64,000 bases of DNA from Thermoplasmatota archaeon (GTDB taxonomy: Archaea > Thermoplasmatota > Thermoplasmata > UBA10834). A program made the position numbers and the translations under genes. The notes under the pieces were generated by a model that was given only the letters and a program-made list of their open reading frames with translations, made no database searches and was not told the DNA's origin. Shown here piece by piece: positions 1,509 through 54,036 of this stretch. Numbering within the stretch: the stretch's first letter is position 1; each line of letters begins with the position of its first letter. The stretch is taken from NCBI GenBank assembly GCA_018818785.1, contig JAHIRF010000005.1, forward strand, positions 62,001 to 126,000, read 5' to 3'.

Positions 1509-1757
1509 TCATTCGGGGAGGCTCCACAGCCAACCCCGCCTCTCGTGCGACACTTCTCCTCGGATGAGTCCCTTCCTCCGCATCTTCGTAAGGAAGATCA
1601 CGGTCTGATCGGGACACTTCTTCTCCTGTGCAGCTGCGAGCAGCTCGATCTCCATGGTCGTCAATGGTCCTCTCGAACGCAATATGGCGATGACGAAAGA
1701 CTCGGCGTCGGAGGGGGTCATCGATACGATCGAATCGTGGCCCATCGAATCCCCCAT
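1509..1757 (-). CDS. Small winged-helix-like protein
   Basis: 82 aa; SFVIAILRSRGPLTTMEIELLAA...VIFLTKMRRKGLIRGEV pattern of a wHTH. Confidence 0.5.
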   Translation of the reverse strand: MGDSMGHDSIVSMTPSDAESFVIAILRSRGPLTTMEIELLAAAQEKKCPDQTVIFLTKMRRKGLIRGEVSHERRGWLWSLPE

Positions 1758-1919: not shown

Positions 1920-2435
1920 CTAACCGTTGAAGTTGATGGAAGTCATCGAGCTTGCGGTCGGACCGTATATCAGGGTTATCGTGTAGGTGCTTGTGCTCAA
2001 GAACGAGACTGCAGTCACGGAGAAATAGTCGCCCTGGTTCGCGTATCCGTTACCAGATAGATCCGTCACGCTCAGAGACACCACAAGAGTGCCCAGAGTC
2101 ACTGTCCCGAAGTAGTTCCTGTCACCAGCGCCATCATCGAGGTCGCCCTGTGTGAGGTTTGTCCAACCCTCGTCGTTCGTTCCGTCAGATATCAGAACGT
2201 CTACATCTGTCCACAACGTCTCAATGCTCACGGCTGCCAAGGTCAACTTCACACCATTCGTGATGGTGCCCTTTGTCAGCTGAGTGGTCGGTGTCTGCTG
2301 GCTAGTACCTCCGAATCCCAGAACCATCACGTACAAGACGGCTGCTAGGACGACGGTGATCGCGACCATCAAGATGGTAGCAATAACCGGAGATACTGCT
2401 TCGGCATCCTTGCGGATTGCCCAAATTCGCTTCAT
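1920..2435 (-). CDS. Archaeal type IV pilin-like protein (pilin N-terminal domain)
   Basis: AVSPVIATILMVAITVVLAAVLYVMVLGF N-terminal class III signal/hydrophobic helix; SD GGAGG upstream and TATA-like GCTATATAAGC (minus) near 2492. Confidence 0.85.
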   Translation of the reverse strand: MKRIWAIRKDAEAVSPVIATILMVAITVVLAAVLYVMVLGFGGTSQQTPTTQLTKGTITNGVKLTLAAVSIETLWTDVDVLISDGTNDEGWTNLTQGDLDDGAGDRNYFGTVTLGTLVVSLSVTDLSGNGYANQGDYFSVTAVSFLSTSTYTITLIYGPTASSMTSINFNG

Positions 2436-2697: not shown

Positions 2698-3423
2698 TCA
2701 GCAGGTCCGGATGCCCGTCTGATCGAATGTGCACGGCAGGATCCCGACTAAGCCTGGCCTGTTTCGGACCTTCTGCACGACGATGTACTTCTTGAACTCC
2801 TGTCCGATCTTCTCCCTGTCGAGCTCGAATATCACGTCCGCGAGGTCCTCAATGCTGCTCTGGATACGGGACTCGTGGACGCCCTTGAGCATAGTCATCA
2901 AAGTGACGCTCTCCGAGTGCTGCGTATGCGCCTTTATCGTGCGCATGGCCATGAGCACCTCCGAGCTGTCATAGTTCTCGAGGAAGAAGTCAAGCGAGTT
3001 GATGACCACCCTGAAAGGAGGTGTGATCTTCGATATCTCATATGCGAGGAAGGTCAGGAAGTTCTCTTCCTTGCCCGCGTCCTTGTCCTTGATCCGTCGG
3101 ATATCCTGGAGCGTTATACCTTCCTGCCTGAACTTGCTGATCTCAAGTTTCTTTGCGAGCACGTTCTCATAGTACTTCGTGCCGATATTGACTATGTTGA
3201 TATCCGTCCTCCACCCGTGCTCGCGCATTATGCTCATGACGTCCTCGTCCCTCTCCGTTGACGTGAAGTAGGTCACCGGCTCCTGTCCCGTGGATGCGAA
3301 CTGCTTCGCGAAGAATTCTGCTCCAGATCCAGGACCCCCTACGACCAGGACGGTCGATCCCTTCAGGACGCCTCCGCCGAGGTGGTCGTTGAGAGCGGGT
3401 ATGCCCATGCTCGTCAGGTTCAT
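2698..3423 (-). CDS. KaiC/RecA-like ATPase-fold protein with degenerate Walker A (GGPGSGAE)
   Basis: KaiC-like N-terminus (TSMGIPALNDHLGGGVLKGSTVLVVGGPGSGAEFFAKQF), Walker-B-like VVINSLDFF. Confidence 0.8.
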   Translation of the reverse strand: MNLTSMGIPALNDHLGGGVLKGSTVLVVGGPGSGAEFFAKQFASTGQEPVTYFTSTERDEDVMSIMREHGWRTDINIVNIGTKYYENVLAKKLEISKFRQEGITLQDIRRIKDKDAGKEENFLTFLAYEISKITPPFRVVINSLDFFLENYDSSEVLMAMRTIKAHTQHSESVTLMTMLKGVHESRIQSSIEDLADVIFELDREKIGQEFKKYIVVQKVRNRPGLVGILPCTFDQTGIRTC

Positions 3424-3424
3424 C

Positions 3425-4015
3425 TCAGTCCCCCGGCTTGCCTATTCGTATGACCTGGTCGCAGACCAGGTTCACCAGGTTCACGATCTCGGGTGTCGAG
3501 TGCTCCTCGACAGACAATATGATCGTGTATGCATCCTTCGCCCTGAGCCCGGACACCAATATGTGAAGGAACTCGGAGAGGATCCAGTTGTTGTTGTGGA
3601 TAGAGAGGGAGTTGATCGAATCTAGCACGACCAGCTTGTTCTTCGACGGTGACATCCTTATGAGATATTCGACTTTCAGCATGATGTTCTCGAGCATCGT
3701 GGGACTCTCGACCAGGGATGCGTGCTCGTCCTTCTGCGCGGCCGTGGTGCCCATCATTATGTGCGAGATGCAATCGACGAAGTACATGCGAGATGTGTCA
3801 ATGTCGAGGGCATCCAACACTCGTTTTATGGCCTCGAACGAGATGGTCGCCGTGACGTATATCGTGTCCATGTCCTTCTTGCGGGCGAAGATGTCCAGCA
3901 CCCCGCGCATGACTTCGAGGTAGCTATCGACGCTCATCTGCAACGAGACTGCTGACCCTGGGGAGAGTTCGGAAAGCTGTGCGGCTATCCCCTGCGGGGT
4001 ATTGGCGTCGCTCAT
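3425..4015 (-). CDS. RecA/KaiC-like fold protein lacking a Walker A motif
   Basis: KLVVLDSINSLSIHNN Walker-B-like strand, DIDTSRMYFVDCIS; no GxxxxGK; abuts the two KaiC genes. Confidence 0.7.
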   Translation of the reverse strand: MSDANTPQGIAAQLSELSPGSAVSLQMSVDSYLEVMRGVLDIFARKKDMDTIYVTATISFEAIKRVLDALDIDTSRMYFVDCISHIMMGTTAAQKDEHASLVESPTMLENIMLKVEYLIRMSPSKNKLVVLDSINSLSIHNNNWILSEFLHILVSGLRAKDAYTIILSVEEHSTPEIVNLVNLVCDQVIRIGKPGD

Positions 4016-4767
4016 GTCCCAGCACTCCCTCCTTTCAGAAGTGGCACGAGAAGCACACCTACCGGTGTCAGATCGAGCACGTATTTCGCTCGGCTGTGCA
4101 TGGTTCCGCGCATCTTGATCACCTGCAGTGTGCGCAGGAGGTCTCCTCTCCGTTCCAGGTTCGACATGAGCATGATACCGTCGGCAATTGCCTCCTCGAC
4201 GCCGAACAGGGAGTATGCATTGGAATGCGGTGCCACCTCACTCACAAGTATCGATGTGCACCTGAGGTCCGAGAGCGCCTTGCTCAATTTGAGGACGAAG
4301 TCGCGTATCTTCTCCGGCGTCTTGAGCTTGTAGCATACGGAAGTGATGGAATCTATGACCAACCGCTTGGTGTTCAGCTCCCTGACCAGGCTGCTTATCG
4401 ACGCGACGAGGAGGTCGATCTCCTCCATCGACAGCTCCGCCTTGGTCATGCCCAGCCGATCATACATGGCGGGGAGGTCGACGAAGACCAGTTTGCCCGA
4501 CTTCAATAGGTCCTTATCGAAGAATCTGTAGGGTATTATGTTCGCCAGGAGTTTCTCGGAGTTCTCGGTCACTGATATGAACAACGAGTTCTCGTTGTTC
4601 AGAGCGCCGTGGATGAGAAACTCGAGAGCGAGAGATGTCTTGCCAGTGCCACAACTGCCAGTGAGAATGACAGTGTTGTCTGTGGGTATGCCACCATACA
4701 ATATGGTGTCGAGACCGTCGATACCTGTCGCGCAGCGGACGCGATCACCTGTTCTCGGCTCCATCAT
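4012..4767 (-). CDS. KaiC-family ATPase (intact P-loop)
   Basis: TGIDGLDTILYGGIPTDNTVILTGSCGTGKTSLALEFLIHGA; RLVIDSITSV. Confidence 0.9.
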   Translation of the reverse strand: MMEPRTGDRVRCATGIDGLDTILYGGIPTDNTVILTGSCGTGKTSLALEFLIHGALNNENSLFISVTENSEKLLANIIPYRFFDKDLLKSGKLVFVDLPAMYDRLGMTKAELSMEEIDLLVASISSLVRELNTKRLVIDSITSVCYKLKTPEKIRDFVLKLSKALSDLRCTSILVSEVAPHSNAYSLFGVEEAIADGIMLMSNLERRGDLLRTLQVIKMRGTMHSRAKYVLDLTPVGVLLVPLLKGGSAGT

Positions 4768-4876
4768 TCTTTATGAATACCATGGTTCGCATATTATTGT
4801 TTCTTATGCGTAGGCACGTGCACATCATTGGATGATGCGACACTTTTTTATCAGGGCAGGTGGGTCATTCATCTCG

Positions 4877-6169
4877 ATGAAACCCGTACTTCAGGTCGCG
4901 CTCGACCTAGTGCAAGGCGAGAGGGCCCTCGAGATCGCTAAGGAGGCGGTCAGTGGGGGAGTCGACTGGATAGAGGCGGGCACTCCATTGATCAAGAGCG
5001 AAGGAGTGGAAATCATCAGAAAGCTCAAGAAGAGCTTTCCTGCAAATACGATAGTTGCAGATATGAAGACCATCGATGTCGGTGGAGCTGAGGTCGAGAT
5101 AGCTGCGAAGTCAGGTGCCGATGTTGTGGTCATACTGGGCCTGTCGTCCGACCCCACGATAACCGAGGCGATCCTGAGCGCCAGGCAATACGGCGCCAAG
5201 ATCATGGTCGACCTGTTCAACGTCGAGGACAAACCTGCGAGGGCTAAGAGGGTCGAGGAGATGGGGGCCGATTACGTCTGCGTCCATGTAGGAGTGGATG
5301 AGCAGATGGTCGGAGGTTCGCCCCTCGGAGAGCTCAAGAGCGTGGTCGAGGCGGTGAGGATCCCGGTGGCTGCCGCGGGCGGCATAAACAGTGAGACCGC
5401 CACGGATGTGATGGATGCTGGGGCGATGATCGTCATCGTCGGTGGAGCCATAATAAAAGCGATGGATGTGCCGTCTGCCACGAAGACGATCAAGGATGCG
5501 ATGGTATCCGGCGAGAAGAGGATGTCCGAGCTGTTCAGGAAATACTCCGCGGATGAGCTCTTCGAAGCTTTCTCGAAGGTATCGTCCCCCAACGTGACCG
5601 ATGCCCAACACAAGAGAGGTGCCATGAAGGGTATACTCCCCCGGATAGCTCATAACGTGAAGATGGTCGGGCGCGCCGTCACAGTCCAGACGTTCAACGG
5701 GGACTGGGCGAAATCAGTGGAAGCCGTCGACCGCGCGTCCGAAGGCGATGTGATAGTGGTCGATGCCTGTGGCGGAGACATCGCGGTCTGGGGAGAACTG
5801 GCTTCATGGAGCTGCAAGACGAAAGGAGTCGCGGGTGTGGTGATCGATGGCGCCACCAGGGACGTCGACTCCATAATCGACATGGGATTCCCATGCTTCT
5901 CAAGACATATATCGTCCAACGCCGGGGAACCGAAGGGATATGGCGGGATAGGTCAGGAGATCGTTTGCGGTGGTATCACGGTCCGCACTGGCGATTGGGT
6001 GATAGGTGACGAGAGTGGCGTCGTCGTGGTGCCGCAGGAGAACGCCGTCGAGGTGGCGAACCGGGCATTGGATGTCATGGAGAGAGAGAACCGTATTCGA
6101 GAGGAGATAAAACGGGGCGGTACACTCTCAAGTGTTCTTAAGCTCGAGAAATGGGAAAAGGTTGGTTGA
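4877..6169 (+). CDS. Bifunctional 3-hexulose-6-phosphate synthase / RraA-like domain protein
   Basis: N-terminal Hps (LQVALDLVQGERALEIAKEAVSGGVDWIEAGTPLIKSEG), C-terminal RraA-like (VVDACGGDIAVWGELAS...GVAGVVIDGATRDVDSI); start at MKPVLQVALDL. Confidence 0.9.
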   Translation: MKPVLQVALDLVQGERALEIAKEAVSGGVDWIEAGTPLIKSEGVEIIRKLKKSFPANTIVADMKTIDVGGAEVEIAAKSGADVVVILGLSSDPTITEAILSARQYGAKIMVDLFNVEDKPARAKRVEEMGADYVCVHVGVDEQMVGGSPLGELKSVVEAVRIPVAAAGGINSETATDVMDAGAMIVIVGGAIIKAMDVPSATKTIKDAMVSGEKRMSELFRKYSADELFEAFSKVSSPNVTDAQHKRGAMKGILPRIAHNVKMVGRAVTVQTFNGDWAKSVEAVDRASEGDVIVVDACGGDIAVWGELASWSCKTKGVAGVVIDGATRDVDSIIDMGFPCFSRHISSNAGEPKGYGGIGQEIVCGGITVRTGDWVIGDESGVVVVPQENAVEVANRALDVMERENRIREEIKRGGTLSSVLKLEKWEKVG

Positions 6170-47105: not shown

Positions 47106-47522
47106 GTGAATATCATGGAGCAACCAGACCGCGCCATAAAGATGCGCAAGGAGGAGCTCGTAGAGATCAAGCGGCTTTACGAAACAGTCATGACTTTTGC
47201 ATCCCACGGAATGTTCTACAGGAGCGGAAGGATAATGGGCAATCGTATCGTCAAGACGACGGGCACTGACTTGGGCAGGATACGAGAAGTCCTGATCAAG
47301 GAAGGCTGGGCGATCGACCTCGTCTTTGAAGGCGATACCGTGTCCATATCCGGCTCTATCGAGGTGCACAGTTCTGACATGCCGACCTGTCATATGCTCA
47401 GGGGCATACTCGCAAAGGTGTTCGAGGAACGCACAGGCAAGGATGTGTATTGCCACGAGCGGAAGTGCGTATCCAAAGGAGACGATAAATGCGTCTTCAT
47501 CATAGATACAGAGGTGCTGTAG
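47106..47522 (+). CDS. V4R (4-vinyl reductase) domain sensor-like protein
   Basis: YRSGRIMGNRIV..., CHMLRGILAKVFEERTGKDVYCHERKCVSKGDDKCVFII. Confidence 0.88.
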   Translation: MNIMEQPDRAIKMRKEELVEIKRLYETVMTFASHGMFYRSGRIMGNRIVKTTGTDLGRIREVLIKEGWAIDLVFEGDTVSISGSIEVHSSDMPTCHMLRGILAKVFEERTGKDVYCHERKCVSKGDDKCVFIIDTEVL

Positions 47523-48197
47523 ATGTCTAGGAAGACCTCTGGAATACCAGGTCTGGATGGAATGCTCCAGGGAGGTTTCCCGTTCCCATCCGCAGTGCTC
47601 GTCGCTGGCGAGCCAGGTACTGGAAAGACCACCTTCGCGGTCCAGAGCCTGTTCCACGGTGCCCGCGAGGGCGAGAAGGGTCTTTACATAACTGCAATAT
47701 CGGAACCGCAATGGCTCGTGCAGAAATTCCTTTCATCGTTCTCATTCTACGACCAGCAGCTGGTCGAGCGTGGGATTGTGAACTTCATCGATATCGGACC
47801 GACGCTCATGAAGAACCCGAGCGATATGCTGGGCACTATAAAGAAGCAGATCGAACAGCACCATCCCGCCAGGATAGTGATCGACCCCATCACTCCGATG
47901 ACCGATATGCTGCAATGGCGTGGCGAGACGAGGGAGTTCATGCACGAACTGTTCGCTTACCTGAAAGCGTTCGAATCGCTCGCGATCATCACCGCGGAGC
48001 TGTCATACGATGACATCTCCCACAGCCAGGAATCTTACATGGTCGATGGAGTCGTGATGCTCTCCTACCCTGAGGAAGAGAAGGTCAGGCGGAAGTTCCT
48101 CGAAGTCTTGAAGATGAGGGGGACCAAGCACACGACTGGAAGACAGTTGATCGACATCACCGACGAGGGGTTGGCTGTCCAGGCAGGCTTGAGGTAA
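47523..48197 (+). CDS. KaiC-family ATPase (intact P-loop)
   Basis: TSGIPGLDGMLQGGFPFPSAVLVAGEPGTGKTTFAVQSLFHGA; RIVIDPITPM. Confidence 0.92.
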   Translation: MSRKTSGIPGLDGMLQGGFPFPSAVLVAGEPGTGKTTFAVQSLFHGAREGEKGLYITAISEPQWLVQKFLSSFSFYDQQLVERGIVNFIDIGPTLMKNPSDMLGTIKKQIEQHHPARIVIDPITPMTDMLQWRGETREFMHELFAYLKAFESLAIITAELSYDDISHSQESYMVDGVVMLSYPEEEKVRRKFLEVLKMRGTKHTTGRQLIDITDEGLAVQAGLR

Positions 48198-48205
48198 GTC
48201 ATTTC

Positions 48206-48715
48206 ATGAGTGGCGGATATAGCCCTGCTCTCATCAACGGCAACTCGTACCTGTTCACGAAGAAGGGCGTCGAACAGGCCTATGATGCCATGAAGAAGAT
48301 GCTCGCTGAGGGCAGGCGTGGGCTTGTGATCACCCGCACCCATCCGAGTCGGGTGCAGCAGCTGTACGGCTTGGACTGCCCCATCATGTGGATCGCCAAG
48401 AACATCAAGACGACCACAACCACCAGTGGTGTGATCAACCTCGAACCGACTAGGTTGATGAAGATACACAGCACGATCTCGGATTTCATAAAGGCGAACC
48501 CCGGAGCGACAGTCCTCCTCGACGGTCTTGAGTACCTGATAACCGAGAACGGTTTCTCGACAGTCATGAAGGCGATACAACTCACGAACGAGGAGGTGGC
48601 GATGTCCGGAGCCCTCCTTCTTGTTCCAGTCGACCCGAGAACCCTGGAGACGCAACAGTTGGGATACCTCGAGCGCGAGTTCTCTCTGCCAGAGGATAAC
48701 AACAGGGACCGATGA
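48206..48715 (+). CDS. DUF835 domain protein
   Basis: NGNSYLF, GLVITRTHPSRVQQLYGLDCPIMWIAK, TVLLDGLEYLITENGFSTVMKAIQ, VPVDPRTLE. Confidence 0.88.
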   Translation: MSGGYSPALINGNSYLFTKKGVEQAYDAMKKMLAEGRRGLVITRTHPSRVQQLYGLDCPIMWIAKNIKTTTTTSGVINLEPTRLMKIHSTISDFIKANPGATVLLDGLEYLITENGFSTVMKAIQLTNEEVAMSGALLLVPVDPRTLETQQLGYLEREFSLPEDNNRDR

Positions 48716-50427: not shown

Positions 50428-50532
50428 CAACCCGCGAAATACCCTTGAGCTTATATAACCGTGCGGTCGCGATCGGTACCTGACACATGGTGGCCGACCT
50501 CTCGTAAGGTAGTTGGTAATGACCGCAACACG

Positions 50533-50540
50533 TTTATATA
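50533..50540 (+). promoter_or_regulatory. TATA box-like TTTATATA for the giant surface-protein gene
   Basis: cgTTTATATAcgc about 62 nt before proposed start 50602. Confidence 0.5.
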
Positions 50541-50601
50541 CGCACTTATACGTTTGAAACCTAAGCTGGCAGGGCACTCCATCTCCCCGGAGGATGCATC
50601 G

Positions 50602-53600
50602 ATGAGTCTGAAACTATTCAAGAGAAAAGCATGGTCTGATGATAGCGCTGTTTCCGAAATTATCGGCAATATACTCATACTAATGATAACTGTGATGCTG
50701 TTCAGCGGGATCATGGTATTCGTCAATCAGATGCCCGTCCCTGAATTGGCCACGAAGACCGATTTCGTCGGCAGCGTTTCGTTCGATGCTTCGGGTACGG
50801 AGGCGACCCTGACCATCACTCACTCCGGAGGTGCAGTACTTCCTGCCAATTACACGACCGTTTTCATCCTCATCGACGACGTGAGCTACACATACAAACT
50901 CTCTGAGGATGCAGAATTCACCCATGATTATTGGGCCACTGGTCTTGATTGGACCAAGACCTTCAATAGCACTTCATATTCAAGCGTAATAACCGTTACA
51001 GTCATCGACGATGTCAAGCACTCTGCCGTCTGGGTCAGCCAGCTCAGTGGCGGAATGGGTGGCGGACCACCTACCATCCTCCAGAGATATGTCGATTCCA
51101 ATGTGAACACCCCGACTGCGGATTACATCAAAGCCGGAGATGATTTCTCACTGTTCGTCAAGGTCATCGATCTTGATGGCGATCTGGACACTACCACGAG
51201 TGGTGTCTGGGTCGATTCGAGAAGTATAGGTGGCGTCGAAAATGATACGTACGAGGTGGCAAGCGGAGGATGGTTCCGCTGGGATTACACGGATGTGACC
51301 GATGATGTGGTCAGTGTCGATGGAAAGGTTCTCATCATCCATGCTAAGGACACCGCAGGTCACGAATCCATATCCAATTTCAAGATATCTGTAATCGTGC
51401 TTCCTGTTGAACCCGGTGATGTGACCCTTATCGAAACTCCAACCGACGAAGGGGGCTTGCCGTCATATCTGACCTTCTCATCACCCATACTCGGCTCAGG
51501 CTACGGCGTCTATGGCGAGAACTTGACGAACAACACGCCTACGGAGAGGGCTGATGTGAACGATGCGAGGACAACCTTCGACAAGGATGAGAGAGTGTTC
51601 GTCCGGGTCGCGAGCACCCAGATGACCAACATCATGGGCCGGAACGATTTGACCCTTAAGGACACAAGGACGGGCCTCACTTACATCCCGACCTTCTTCA
51701 ACCAGAGCGCTGTCAATGTCGATAACCCGTTCTATGTCTATGGATCGGCCGGATCAGCCCAGATATATCAAGCCAAGTTCAACACGTCCGGTCTGCCACC
51801 GAGTGCATACAGTATGAACATTTACCTGAGAAGTGCAGGTACTGACGAGGTCGTGTTCCAGACGGATATTACGCTCATAATCCAGCAGGAAGGCTCACCT
51901 ATCACCTTCATCCCGCAAATCTATCTGTTCTCGGATGCAACGATGACCATTCCTTTCGGGACAAAGACGACTCCATACGATGTCAACGGTGGGACGCATA
52001 CCATTTACGCAAGCATGAATGTGCAGGATGCCCAGAGCACCCCGCCATACCCTGTTGTCGGTGAGATACGGATCGAGGATTTGACCGGTGGGGCGGAGAT
52101 ATACGGAACCCCACCTGCTGGTGCGATGATCAGCAACTTCGTGCAGGATGCGACCAATGCATCACACCAGAGATACAGTTTCACGATAGATCTGAGAATC
52201 AACAATGCAGACCAATGGCTCTCTGGCAGCAACACTTATACCCTACGCATATCCAGTTTCAGTGACAATAATGAGGGGATATACAGCCTCGCGAAGCAGG
52301 TCTATATAAAGGCCAGCGTCAGCAAGATGGACTTCTTCACTGCGACGAACGGCATCTATTCGACCAGAGGTGGCAGTACCAACTTCGTGAACCCTGAATA
52401 CATCTACTATATCGAGAACAACAACTTCTTCACGACCAGGGTATTGCACGACCAATCCAATTCCCCCAGTGCAGCAGCTATGTACTACATGACCGCGATG
52501 GCCGTTGGCGACCTCGATGGTGACGCCGATGACGACCTCATAGCGGCCCAGTTCAAGCCGTCAGGGTCAGGTTATGTCGCAGAGGGGCATCTGCTATACT
52601 TCGAGAACTCCATGAACTCCTATGGTAATTGGCAAGCTCCATCGTTCATCACCAGAGCAAGTGCGGACGATACGACCGTGAAGATCGAATGGATTGCCGC
52701 AGGAGACACCAATGGCGATGGCGATATCGATATCATGTATGCAACGGAGGCGCACAAGTTGTTCATCTACAACAACACATATGGTGCAGCAGCGGTGCGA
52801 TTCCTCAGTTCCGCATATGGTTCGGGCAACGATGGCATCAGGAAGATCGATCTGAAGGACATGAACGGTGACGATGCTGCCGATCTCATCGTTCTTGCGA
52901 ACGGAATCGTGTACGTCTATGACATCAAGAATTGGAGGACCACCCCGATCGCCACGATCCAGGCGACCAGCGGCACTTCGAATATCGAAGACTTCGATAT
53001 CGCGGACGTCAATGGCGATGGGATGCTTGATGTCCTCACTGCGGATCCGAACAGTGCCTCTGGTAATAGCATCGAAGGCGTGTGGGTCAATTACTACAGA
53101 GAATCCACATCCCCAACGGTGAAGTTGCTGGACCAGACGTTCACTCCCGTTGTGACATATGGGGCTATCTCCCCGAGCACTCTCCCGACTTCGGTGACCT
53201 ATACCCAAGTCAATGACACTCAGGCCACGGCTGTTCAAGAGAGCGCAGTTTCTGGTATTGCATCCGCGACATTCAAGGTCCAAGCTCTCACGGCTGACAA
53301 AGACCAGATATTGCATGTGACCGCTAGAACGGTCGGGAACGACGAATCATTCTATATCTGGTATTCGATCGATTCGACGAACGGCATCGATGGCAAGTTC
53401 ACCCCAGTGATCGTGGTGACAAATGGCACCACTAATTGGAGGGAATACACATTCAGACTACCATCCAATGTCGCAGGTCACACCATGTTCATACGCGTGA
53501 CGGACTCGCTCAACTCATACGGTTCTCTCCAAGATTCCCTCGAACTGAACTATGTCTCAGTCCATTCGAGCGTGTTCGGATCGTATATGACGACCAGGAC

Positions 53601-54036
53601 GAATATCGTGACTGTCACGCCTGTATACGCATGCGTTAGAGCGATGAATATCGATGGCATCGGTTCACTCGAGATAGTTGCAGCGAAGAACGGCAATTGG
53701 TCGACATTCTATGCATCGGGCACAGGGCAATATGTCAGCGGCTGGAGCGTCACGAACTCGTACCTCTATATCTACGGTCCCGGTATGACATTGGTATCGC
53801 CGACATTATTCACCGTCGCTGATGTGAATGGTGACAGCTACTCCGATGTCGTGGCGTCCTTCACTCCGAGCAGTATCGGCAGTGCCTCTCAGATCTCCGT
53901 GATCGGCGTGTACATCAATATCGACAACTACTGGTATGTCCAGATCAAAGACCATTACGCTGGCTACCTCTCAGGAACCGAGACAGGATCGATTCTCTAC
54001 TTGCTGGTATCCGATGTCATGCACGAAAGTTCCTAG
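50602..54036 (+). CDS. Giant surface protein: type IV pilin-like N-terminus, Ig-like regions and FG-GAP/EF-hand-like repeats
   Basis: AVSEIIGNILILMITVMLFSGIMVF; repeats VGDLDGDADDDLIAAQF, AGDTNGDGDIDIMYAT, KDMNGDDAADLIVL, ADVNGDGMLDVLTAD, ADVNGDSYSDVVASF; start MSLKLFKRK. Confidence 0.85.
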   Translation: MSLKLFKRKAWSDDSAVSEIIGNILILMITVMLFSGIMVFVNQMPVPELATKTDFVGSVSFDASGTEATLTITHSGGAVLPANYTTVFILIDDVSYTYKLSEDAEFTHDYWATGLDWTKTFNSTSYSSVITVTVIDDVKHSAVWVSQLSGGMGGGPPTILQRYVDSNVNTPTADYIKAGDDFSLFVKVIDLDGDLDTTTSGVWVDSRSIGGVENDTYEVASGGWFRWDYTDVTDDVVSVDGKVLIIHAKDTAGHESISNFKISVIVLPVEPGDVTLIETPTDEGGLPSYLTFSSPILGSGYGVYGENLTNNTPTERADVNDARTTFDKDERVFVRVASTQMTNIMGRNDLTLKDTRTGLTYIPTFFNQSAVNVDNPFYVYGSAGSAQIYQAKFNTSGLPPSAYSMNIYLRSAGTDEVVFQTDITLIIQQEGSPITFIPQIYLFSDATMTIPFGTKTTPYDVNGGTHTIYASMNVQDAQSTPPYPVVGEIRIEDLTGGAEIYGTPPAGAMISNFVQDATNASHQRYSFTIDLRINNADQWLSGSNTYTLRISSFSDNNEGIYSLAKQVYIKASVSKMDFFTATNGIYSTRGGSTNFVNPEYIYYIENNNFFTTRVLHDQSNSPSAAAMYYMTAMAVGDLDGDADDDLIAAQFKPSGSGYVAEGHLLYFENSMNSYGNWQAPSFITRASADDTTVKIEWIAAGDTNGDGDIDIMYATEAHKLFIYNNTYGAAAVRFLSSAYGSGNDGIRKIDLKDMNGDDAADLIVLANGIVYVYDIKNWRTTPIATIQATSGTSNIEDFDIADVNGDGMLDVLTADPNSASGNSIEGVWVNYYRESTSPTVKLLDQTFTPVVTYGAISPSTLPTSVTYTQVNDTQATAVQESAVSGIASATFKVQALTADKDQILHVTARTVGNDESFYIWYSIDSTNGIDGKFTPVIVVTNGTTNWREYTFRLPSNVAGHTMFIRVTDSLNSYGSLQDSLELNYVSVHSSVFGSYMTTRTNIVTVTPVYACVRAMNIDGIGSLEIVAAKNGNWSTFYASGTGQYVSGWSVTNSYLYIYGPGMTLVSPTLFTVADVNGDSYSDVVASFTPSSIGSASQISVIGVYINIDNYWYVQIKDHYAGYLSGTETGSILYLLVSDVMHESS

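Follow-up and report, generated by a model that had tools for sequence, protein, structure and literature searches.

Three adjacent genes of a Thermoplasmatota archaeon, designated K1, K2, and K3, are proposed from their sequences to encode constant members of a single heteromeric complex of the KaiC type, a reading to which we give a probability of about 0.5. The trio would have originated by duplication in the Thermoplasmatota ancestor and would form an asymmetric ring acting as an ArlH-like switch for pili. Active-site losses are patterned across the three proteins, as would fit a mixed, asymmetric ring whose only ATP site is that of K1, and pilin genes adjoin the trio, which suggests the role as a pilus switch. 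A fuller version of this proposal—an ancient hetero-ring of three KaiC paralogues, conserved across the phylum, with labour divided between an ATP site, a finger donor, and an inert subunit, whose dedicated function would be to regulate type IV pili, Elp456-like in architecture and ArlH-like in function—is advanced tentatively, at somewhat less than even odds.

The genes lie near the start of the window, which is the whole 64,000-nucleotide stretch of DNA analysed here (Table 1); relatives of the source genome include the Thermoplasmata metagenome-assembled genomes RBG_19FT_COMBO_56_21 and RBG_13_57_23.

Table 1. The KaiC-type trio and the genes that follow it in the window.
Feature	Position	Strand	Length	Characteristics
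K1	4012..4767	-	251 aa	Intact KaiC-family ATPase; P-loop GSCGTGKT, TE, LVIDS, KMRGTMHS; PF06745 1.4e-52
K2	3425..4015	-	196 aa	KaiC-fold; without P-loop and without C-terminal KxR finger; PF06745 2.8e-7
K3	2698..3423	-	241 aa	KaiC-family; degenerate P-loop PGSGAE; KxR finger QKVRN kept; PF06745 3.2e-20
Archaeal type IV pilin (Pilin_N)	1920..2435	-		PF07790 4.6e-13; 262 bp downstream of K3, same strand
Protein after pilin	1509..1757	-	82 aa	Candidate small winged-helix regulator; Penicillinase_R match weak, E 0.13

A sequence-only reading of this DNA had described one intact KaiC ATPase followed by two paralogues with degenerate or missing P-loops, and its description of the three minus-strand frames proved exact, both in the coordinates and in the spacing, with the K1 and K2 frames overlapping by 4 nt and a gap of 1 nt between K2 and K3. 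The motifs that it named are likewise present: besides the P-loop and LVIDS of K1, K2 has no Walker A but possesses KLVVLDS, and K3 carries GGPGSGAE and VVINS. All three proteins score above the curated cut-off (26.6 bits) of PF06745, the KaiC/RadA-type P-loop ATPase family, at 178.8, 30.6, and 72.9 bits for K1, K2, and K3, respectively, which bears out the proposed kinship with KaiC. Judged by sequence, K2 and K3 belong to PF06745 by descent and are not predicted to be active ATPases. K2 also has a signature of its own, VESPTMLE...LDSIN...HN.

The AlphaFold model of K2, built with 15 close homologues, reached a pLDDT of 74 and a pTM of 0.75, and its best Foldseek matches in the PDB were KaiC and FlaH/ArlH (E 3.5e-7 and 4.2e-7, probability 1.00, TMq 0.6–0.69); the predicted fold of K2 is KaiC/FlaH/RecA-like. 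A K2 profile returned no match among PDB sequences, and the assignment thus rests on the Foldseek and Pfam matches; profile-profile comparison of K2 with K1 and with K3 gave weak similarity. The AlphaFold monomer model of K3 (14 close homologues) had a pLDDT of 34, while profile-profile comparison related K3 to K1 (E 7e-13) and to KaiC (E 1e-28). The RecA-like fold of K1 and K3 is assigned by sequence alone. Unrelated folds in the two degenerate proteins, which would have spoken against the proposed kinship, were therefore not found: K2 is predicted to share the KaiC/FlaH/RecA fold, and both sequence and profile comparisons place K3 in the KaiC family.

Residue conservation was scored phylum-wide for 64 K1, 72 K2, and 49 K3 sequences. 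In K1, the Walker A lysine and the Walker B aspartate are each conserved in 64/64, as are the lysine and histidine of a K-x-R...H element whose middle position is arginine or lysine in 61/64. This element aligns with K224, R226, and H230 of KaiC (numbered by counting along the alignment); in KaiC structures, these residues touch ATP from across the interface between subunits. Each ATP site of a KaiC-type ring combines one subunit's P-loop with the finger supplied by its neighbour. K2 homologues show no Walker A GK[ST] in any of the 72 sequences, and K2 terminates before the position of the KxR finger; D81 and D132 of K2 are nonetheless invariant (72/72), and L108, E109, and N141 nearly so.

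GK[ST] is also missing from all 49 K3 homologues, so that neither family includes a member in which the motif is restored. The position of the P-loop Ser/Thr in K3 is occupied by Glu or Asp in 46/49, and two sequences of family f36 keep the lysine, with Glu in place of Thr (GSSGSGKE and GTSGAGKE). The finger of K3 is retained (K in 48/49; R or K in 44/48), its QKVRN aligning with IKMRG of K1 and with K224-L-R226 of KaiC, and the Glu after strand 2 is present in 48/49. The helix that follows the lost P-loop of K3 carries a lysine, K40, that does not vary (49/49) and that may stand in for the P-loop lysine or sit at a subunit interface. The sequence-only reading had counted two degenerate sites in K3, and these fared differently: loss of the P-loop is universal, but the Asp-to-Asn change is rejected as a family feature and is a local one, given that the Walker B position holds D in 39 of the 49 homologues, N in only 6, and H in 2. 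Taken across the trio, the losses in the aligned sequences are complementary, with K1 possessing a full ATP site, K3 a finger without a P-loop, and K2 neither.

Degenerate ATP-binding motifs of the kind seen in K2 and K3 might also be expected of decaying duplicates, pseudogenes, or sequencing errors. In comparisons of the window with three relatives, however, dN was 0.06–0.19 against a dS of 0.99–2.4 for all three genes, and because dN lies so far below dS, K1, K2, and K3 are under purifying selection. Together with conservation throughout the phylum, which extends to non-catalytic residues (K40 in 49/49 K3 sequences; D81 and D132 in 72/72 K2 sequences), this refutes the reading as pseudogenes or errors, and its probability is negligible.

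The trio is widespread and its arrangement stable. Within the window's order, K3 homologues occur in 20/21 genomes (full-length copies 63%–90% identical), and on every contig of sufficient length the trio is syntenic, as a rule with the pilin included. A K2 profile detected K2 in 184/300 genomes of the class and in 60/91 genera, and a class-wide K2 profile found it in 229/393 genomes sampled from the phylum, although the weakest of these matches, with E values near 1e-8, could represent different KaiC proteins. At 36 class loci, a K1-type gene stands immediately before K2, in some cases with the two frames overlapping; at most of these loci, K3 comes next. The order K1-K2-K3 is kept across about 30 families of class Thermoplasmata (family counts come partly from draft genomes, some of them incomplete) and in sister classes. 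Outside the class, most sampled families have K1-K2-K3, a few have K1-K2 only, and some carry one gene between K2 and K3. The synteny across Thermoplasmatota on which the sequence-only reading had made its proposal depend is thus conserved.

Co-inheritance was scored in 200 class genomes, with thresholds of E <= 1e-55 for a K1 orthologue and E <= 1e-25 for K3. K2 was present in 137 genomes, K1 in 132, and K3 in 94; none of the 200 had K1 without K2, and none had K3 without both K1 and K2. Five genomes with K2 fell below the K1 threshold—four of family f20 and genome G130—and in these, a divergent K1 adjoins K2 (locus L106 in f20 and L185 in G130). No K3 was detected in 43 of the 137 K2-bearing genomes, some of which are drafts, and K3 is hence not indispensable. 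Such a distribution is what obligate partners would leave, with some families able to dispense with K3. In family f46, outside the class, loci L183, L179, and L182 contain extra tandem arrays of K2-like genes and a K1-like gene beside the standard operon, and L183 includes a KaiC match inside a 1064-aa frame with two P-loops; the module has thus been expanded in this family.

The suggestion that the active subunit works with pseudo-ATPase partners in a heteromeric complex is upheld in part, by the strict co-inheritance and by the complementary active-site losses read from the sequences. Within such a complex, K1 may bind and hydrolyse ATP as the sole complete ATP site of an asymmetric ring or ring segment. 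K3 would not hold ATP in the normal way, and its finger would complete or tune the K1 site in trans, while K2 would be non-catalytic and would set the order or register of the ring or dock a target. A mixed ring of this kind would be active only where the P-loop of K1 meets the finger of K1 or K3, with K2 forming a dead interface. The predicted outcome is an asymmetric ring or arc with polarity, in which K1 determines the ATP state and K3 tunes it.

K1 could alternatively be an ordinary homohexameric KaiC-like ATPase, with K2 and K3 performing separate roles, such as those of binding proteins or antagonists, and no mixed ring being formed. K1 holds both the cis and the trans elements, making a complete homo-ring possible, and K2 and K3 have diverged strongly. 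However, the finger kept by K3 would be useful mainly at the ATP site of a neighbour, and the gene order, overlaps, and co-inheritance are all strict; we regard this alternative as unlikely.

With regard to function, the mixed K1-K2-K3 complex would, less certainly, switch type IV pilus assembly in the manner of ArlH, acting on the motor ATPase or on pilin supply. The literature already names KaiC-family ATPases as candidates for regulating type IV pili in archaea (PMC4858521). A pilin gene lies directly downstream of the trio, on the same strand, at 18/36 class loci and at four loci outside the class, a total of 22 or about 40% of loci. The gaps between trio and pilin range from -8 to 427 nt; in some lineages, gaps of -8, 4, 9, 28, and 42 nt point to a shared operon. 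Among the 200 class genomes, Pilin_N was found in 131/137 K2-positive against 25/63 K2-negative genomes (P 5e-18), and a strong match to the pilus-motor ATPase (E below 1e-28, a threshold set in this analysis) in 131/137 against 29/63 (P 3e-15), both P values ignoring shared ancestry. In family f6, G130 is, among the genomes listed, the sole genome with K2 and also the sole genome with Pilin_N genes. Conversely, genomes of family f18 possess pilins and motor ATPases without K2, and the trio is therefore not needed for pili in general; in addition, many trio loci have no adjoining pilin, as in families f3, f4, f9, f10, f14, and f16. The link to pili is thus real but partial, being statistical and partly phylogenetic. 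The earlier claim that the complex is pilus-linked is supported by the adjacent pilins and by co-occurrence with Pilin_N and motor genes, but weakened by the nature of that link and by pili that occur without the trio.

Further genes of interest lie around these. About 30–40 kb from the trio on the same contig (G000:C12:22099-37072, outside the window) is a cluster of two pilus-motor ATPases and two more KaiC-domain proteins. The pilus machinery of this genome, its motor ATPases included, is thus some 35 kb distant and outside the operon, which counts against a role of the trio as a pilus switch. The product of another window gene (50461-54036, +), 1191 aa long, combines FG-GAP repeats with a Pilin_N segment of archaeal type and may be a giant adhesin resembling pilins; large frames with Pilin_N are found repeatedly in the class. 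Divergent from K1, at 4832-6169 (+), is a gene that fuses an OMP decarboxylase/HUMPS-family domain to an RraA-like domain, and this gene family is found near the trio at 12/36 class loci. A second KaiC cassette (47106-48715, +) combines a V4R-domain protein with an intact KaiC ATPase at 47523-48197 and, at 48206-48715, a DUF835 protein. DUF835 is a known inactivated KaiC domain, and hence the window holds two independent gene sets of active plus inactive KaiC.

The frequency of loci without a pilin is also what would be expected if the trio were a GvpD-like module for signalling or transcription control, in which K1 senses nucleotide state, K2 and K3 serve as output adaptors, and pilins are among several targets, with the pilus motor left untouched. 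Archaeal KaiC proteins have been proposed as signalling hubs and iKaiC domains described as signalling parts (PMC5847659); K3 and K2 resemble the iKaiC families DUF7504 and DUF7090, and K3 is weakly like GvpD. Neither protein, nevertheless, reaches the Pfam cut-off of DUF7504 or of DUF7090, and the placement of these DUFs with iKaiC reflects weak K2/K3 similarity only. In the window's order, the pilin is followed by the candidate small regulator gene, whose 82-aa product is 51%–67% identical among the order's loci and had zero family matches above cut-off in the Pfam search; its conservation as a neighbour is confined to this order, and no regulator is consistently adjacent elsewhere. K1–K3 themselves contain no DNA-binding or sensor domain, and the strict co-inheritance of three KaiC folds points to a complex over a loose pathway. 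Such a module is a minority possibility, and we judge it rather improbable.

The sequence-only reading did not recognise the complex as described, and no account of such an obligate KaiC trio was found in the literature searched, which did not include the main 2017 survey of archaeal KaiC; novelty is therefore provisional. Inactivated KaiC domains and links between KaiC and pili are already known. Archaeal KaiC-like proteins are proposed signalling hubs, few of which have known partners, and a fixed, phylum-wide trio offers a small, defined set for testing how inactive subunits steer one active ATPase. It also allows us to ask whether pili in archaea are governed by a KaiC switch much as the archaellum is by ArlH.

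Of the known systems, KaiC itself is matched by K1 from end to end along its CI half, including the K224/R226/H230 element. K1 is, however, a single domain of 251 aa rather than a tandem CI-CII protein, matching one KaiC half at a time, and its equivalents of KaiC S431/T432 are, from the alignment, not Ser/Thr. The trio further differs from KaiC and from the single-domain archaeal KaiC proteins PH0186 and PH0284 in the two degenerate partner genes beside K1, and neither kaiA nor kaiB was noticed in the gene neighbourhoods viewed. Inactivated KaiC domains (iKaiC: DUF835, MEDS, and iKaiC-REC) serve archaeal signalling (PMC5847659), and K2 and K3 are similarly KaiC-derived with an inactivated ATP site; the described iKaiC domains are often fused to REC or PAS, whereas K2 and K3 stand alone beside one K1.

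Elongator provides a ring of mixed composition: Elp456 is a hetero-hexamer of three different RecA folds without a consensus P-loop (PMC11050213). K2 and K3 could be archaeal orthologues of Elp5 and Elp4 that act in modifying tRNA, given that Elong_Iki1 of Pfam was matched by 34/39 K2 sequences and PAXNEB by 21/28 K3 sequences. The window proteins fall below cut-off for these profiles (K3 19.7 against 28 bits for PAXNEB; K2 16.5 against 22.5 bits for Elong_Iki1), and many other KaiC-type proteins of the same genomes match PAXNEB equally or better, making the match generic to the fold. Orthology with Elp4/Elp5 was rejected on this ground, and as the trio has pilin genes near it in many lineages, and not recognised tRNA-modification genes, a shared role is highly improbable. 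Elp456 thus has no specific sequence relationship to the trio, functions in tRNA modification, and lacks a partner with a canonical P-loop such as K1.

ArlH/FlaH is likewise a single KaiC-like RecA domain tied to a type IV filament, and 4yds is among the best structural matches of K2. Unlike the trio, ArlH is one gene within the archaellum operon, and it retains its P-loop. K1 and K3, at 36.2 and 47.1 bits, do not reach the NCBIfam ArlH equivalog cut-off of 215 bits. ArlH sits as a hexamer on ArlI when unphosphorylated and leaves ArlI when phosphorylated (PMC8978795). The closest functional precedent for the trio is ArlH, and the closest architectural precedent Elp456.
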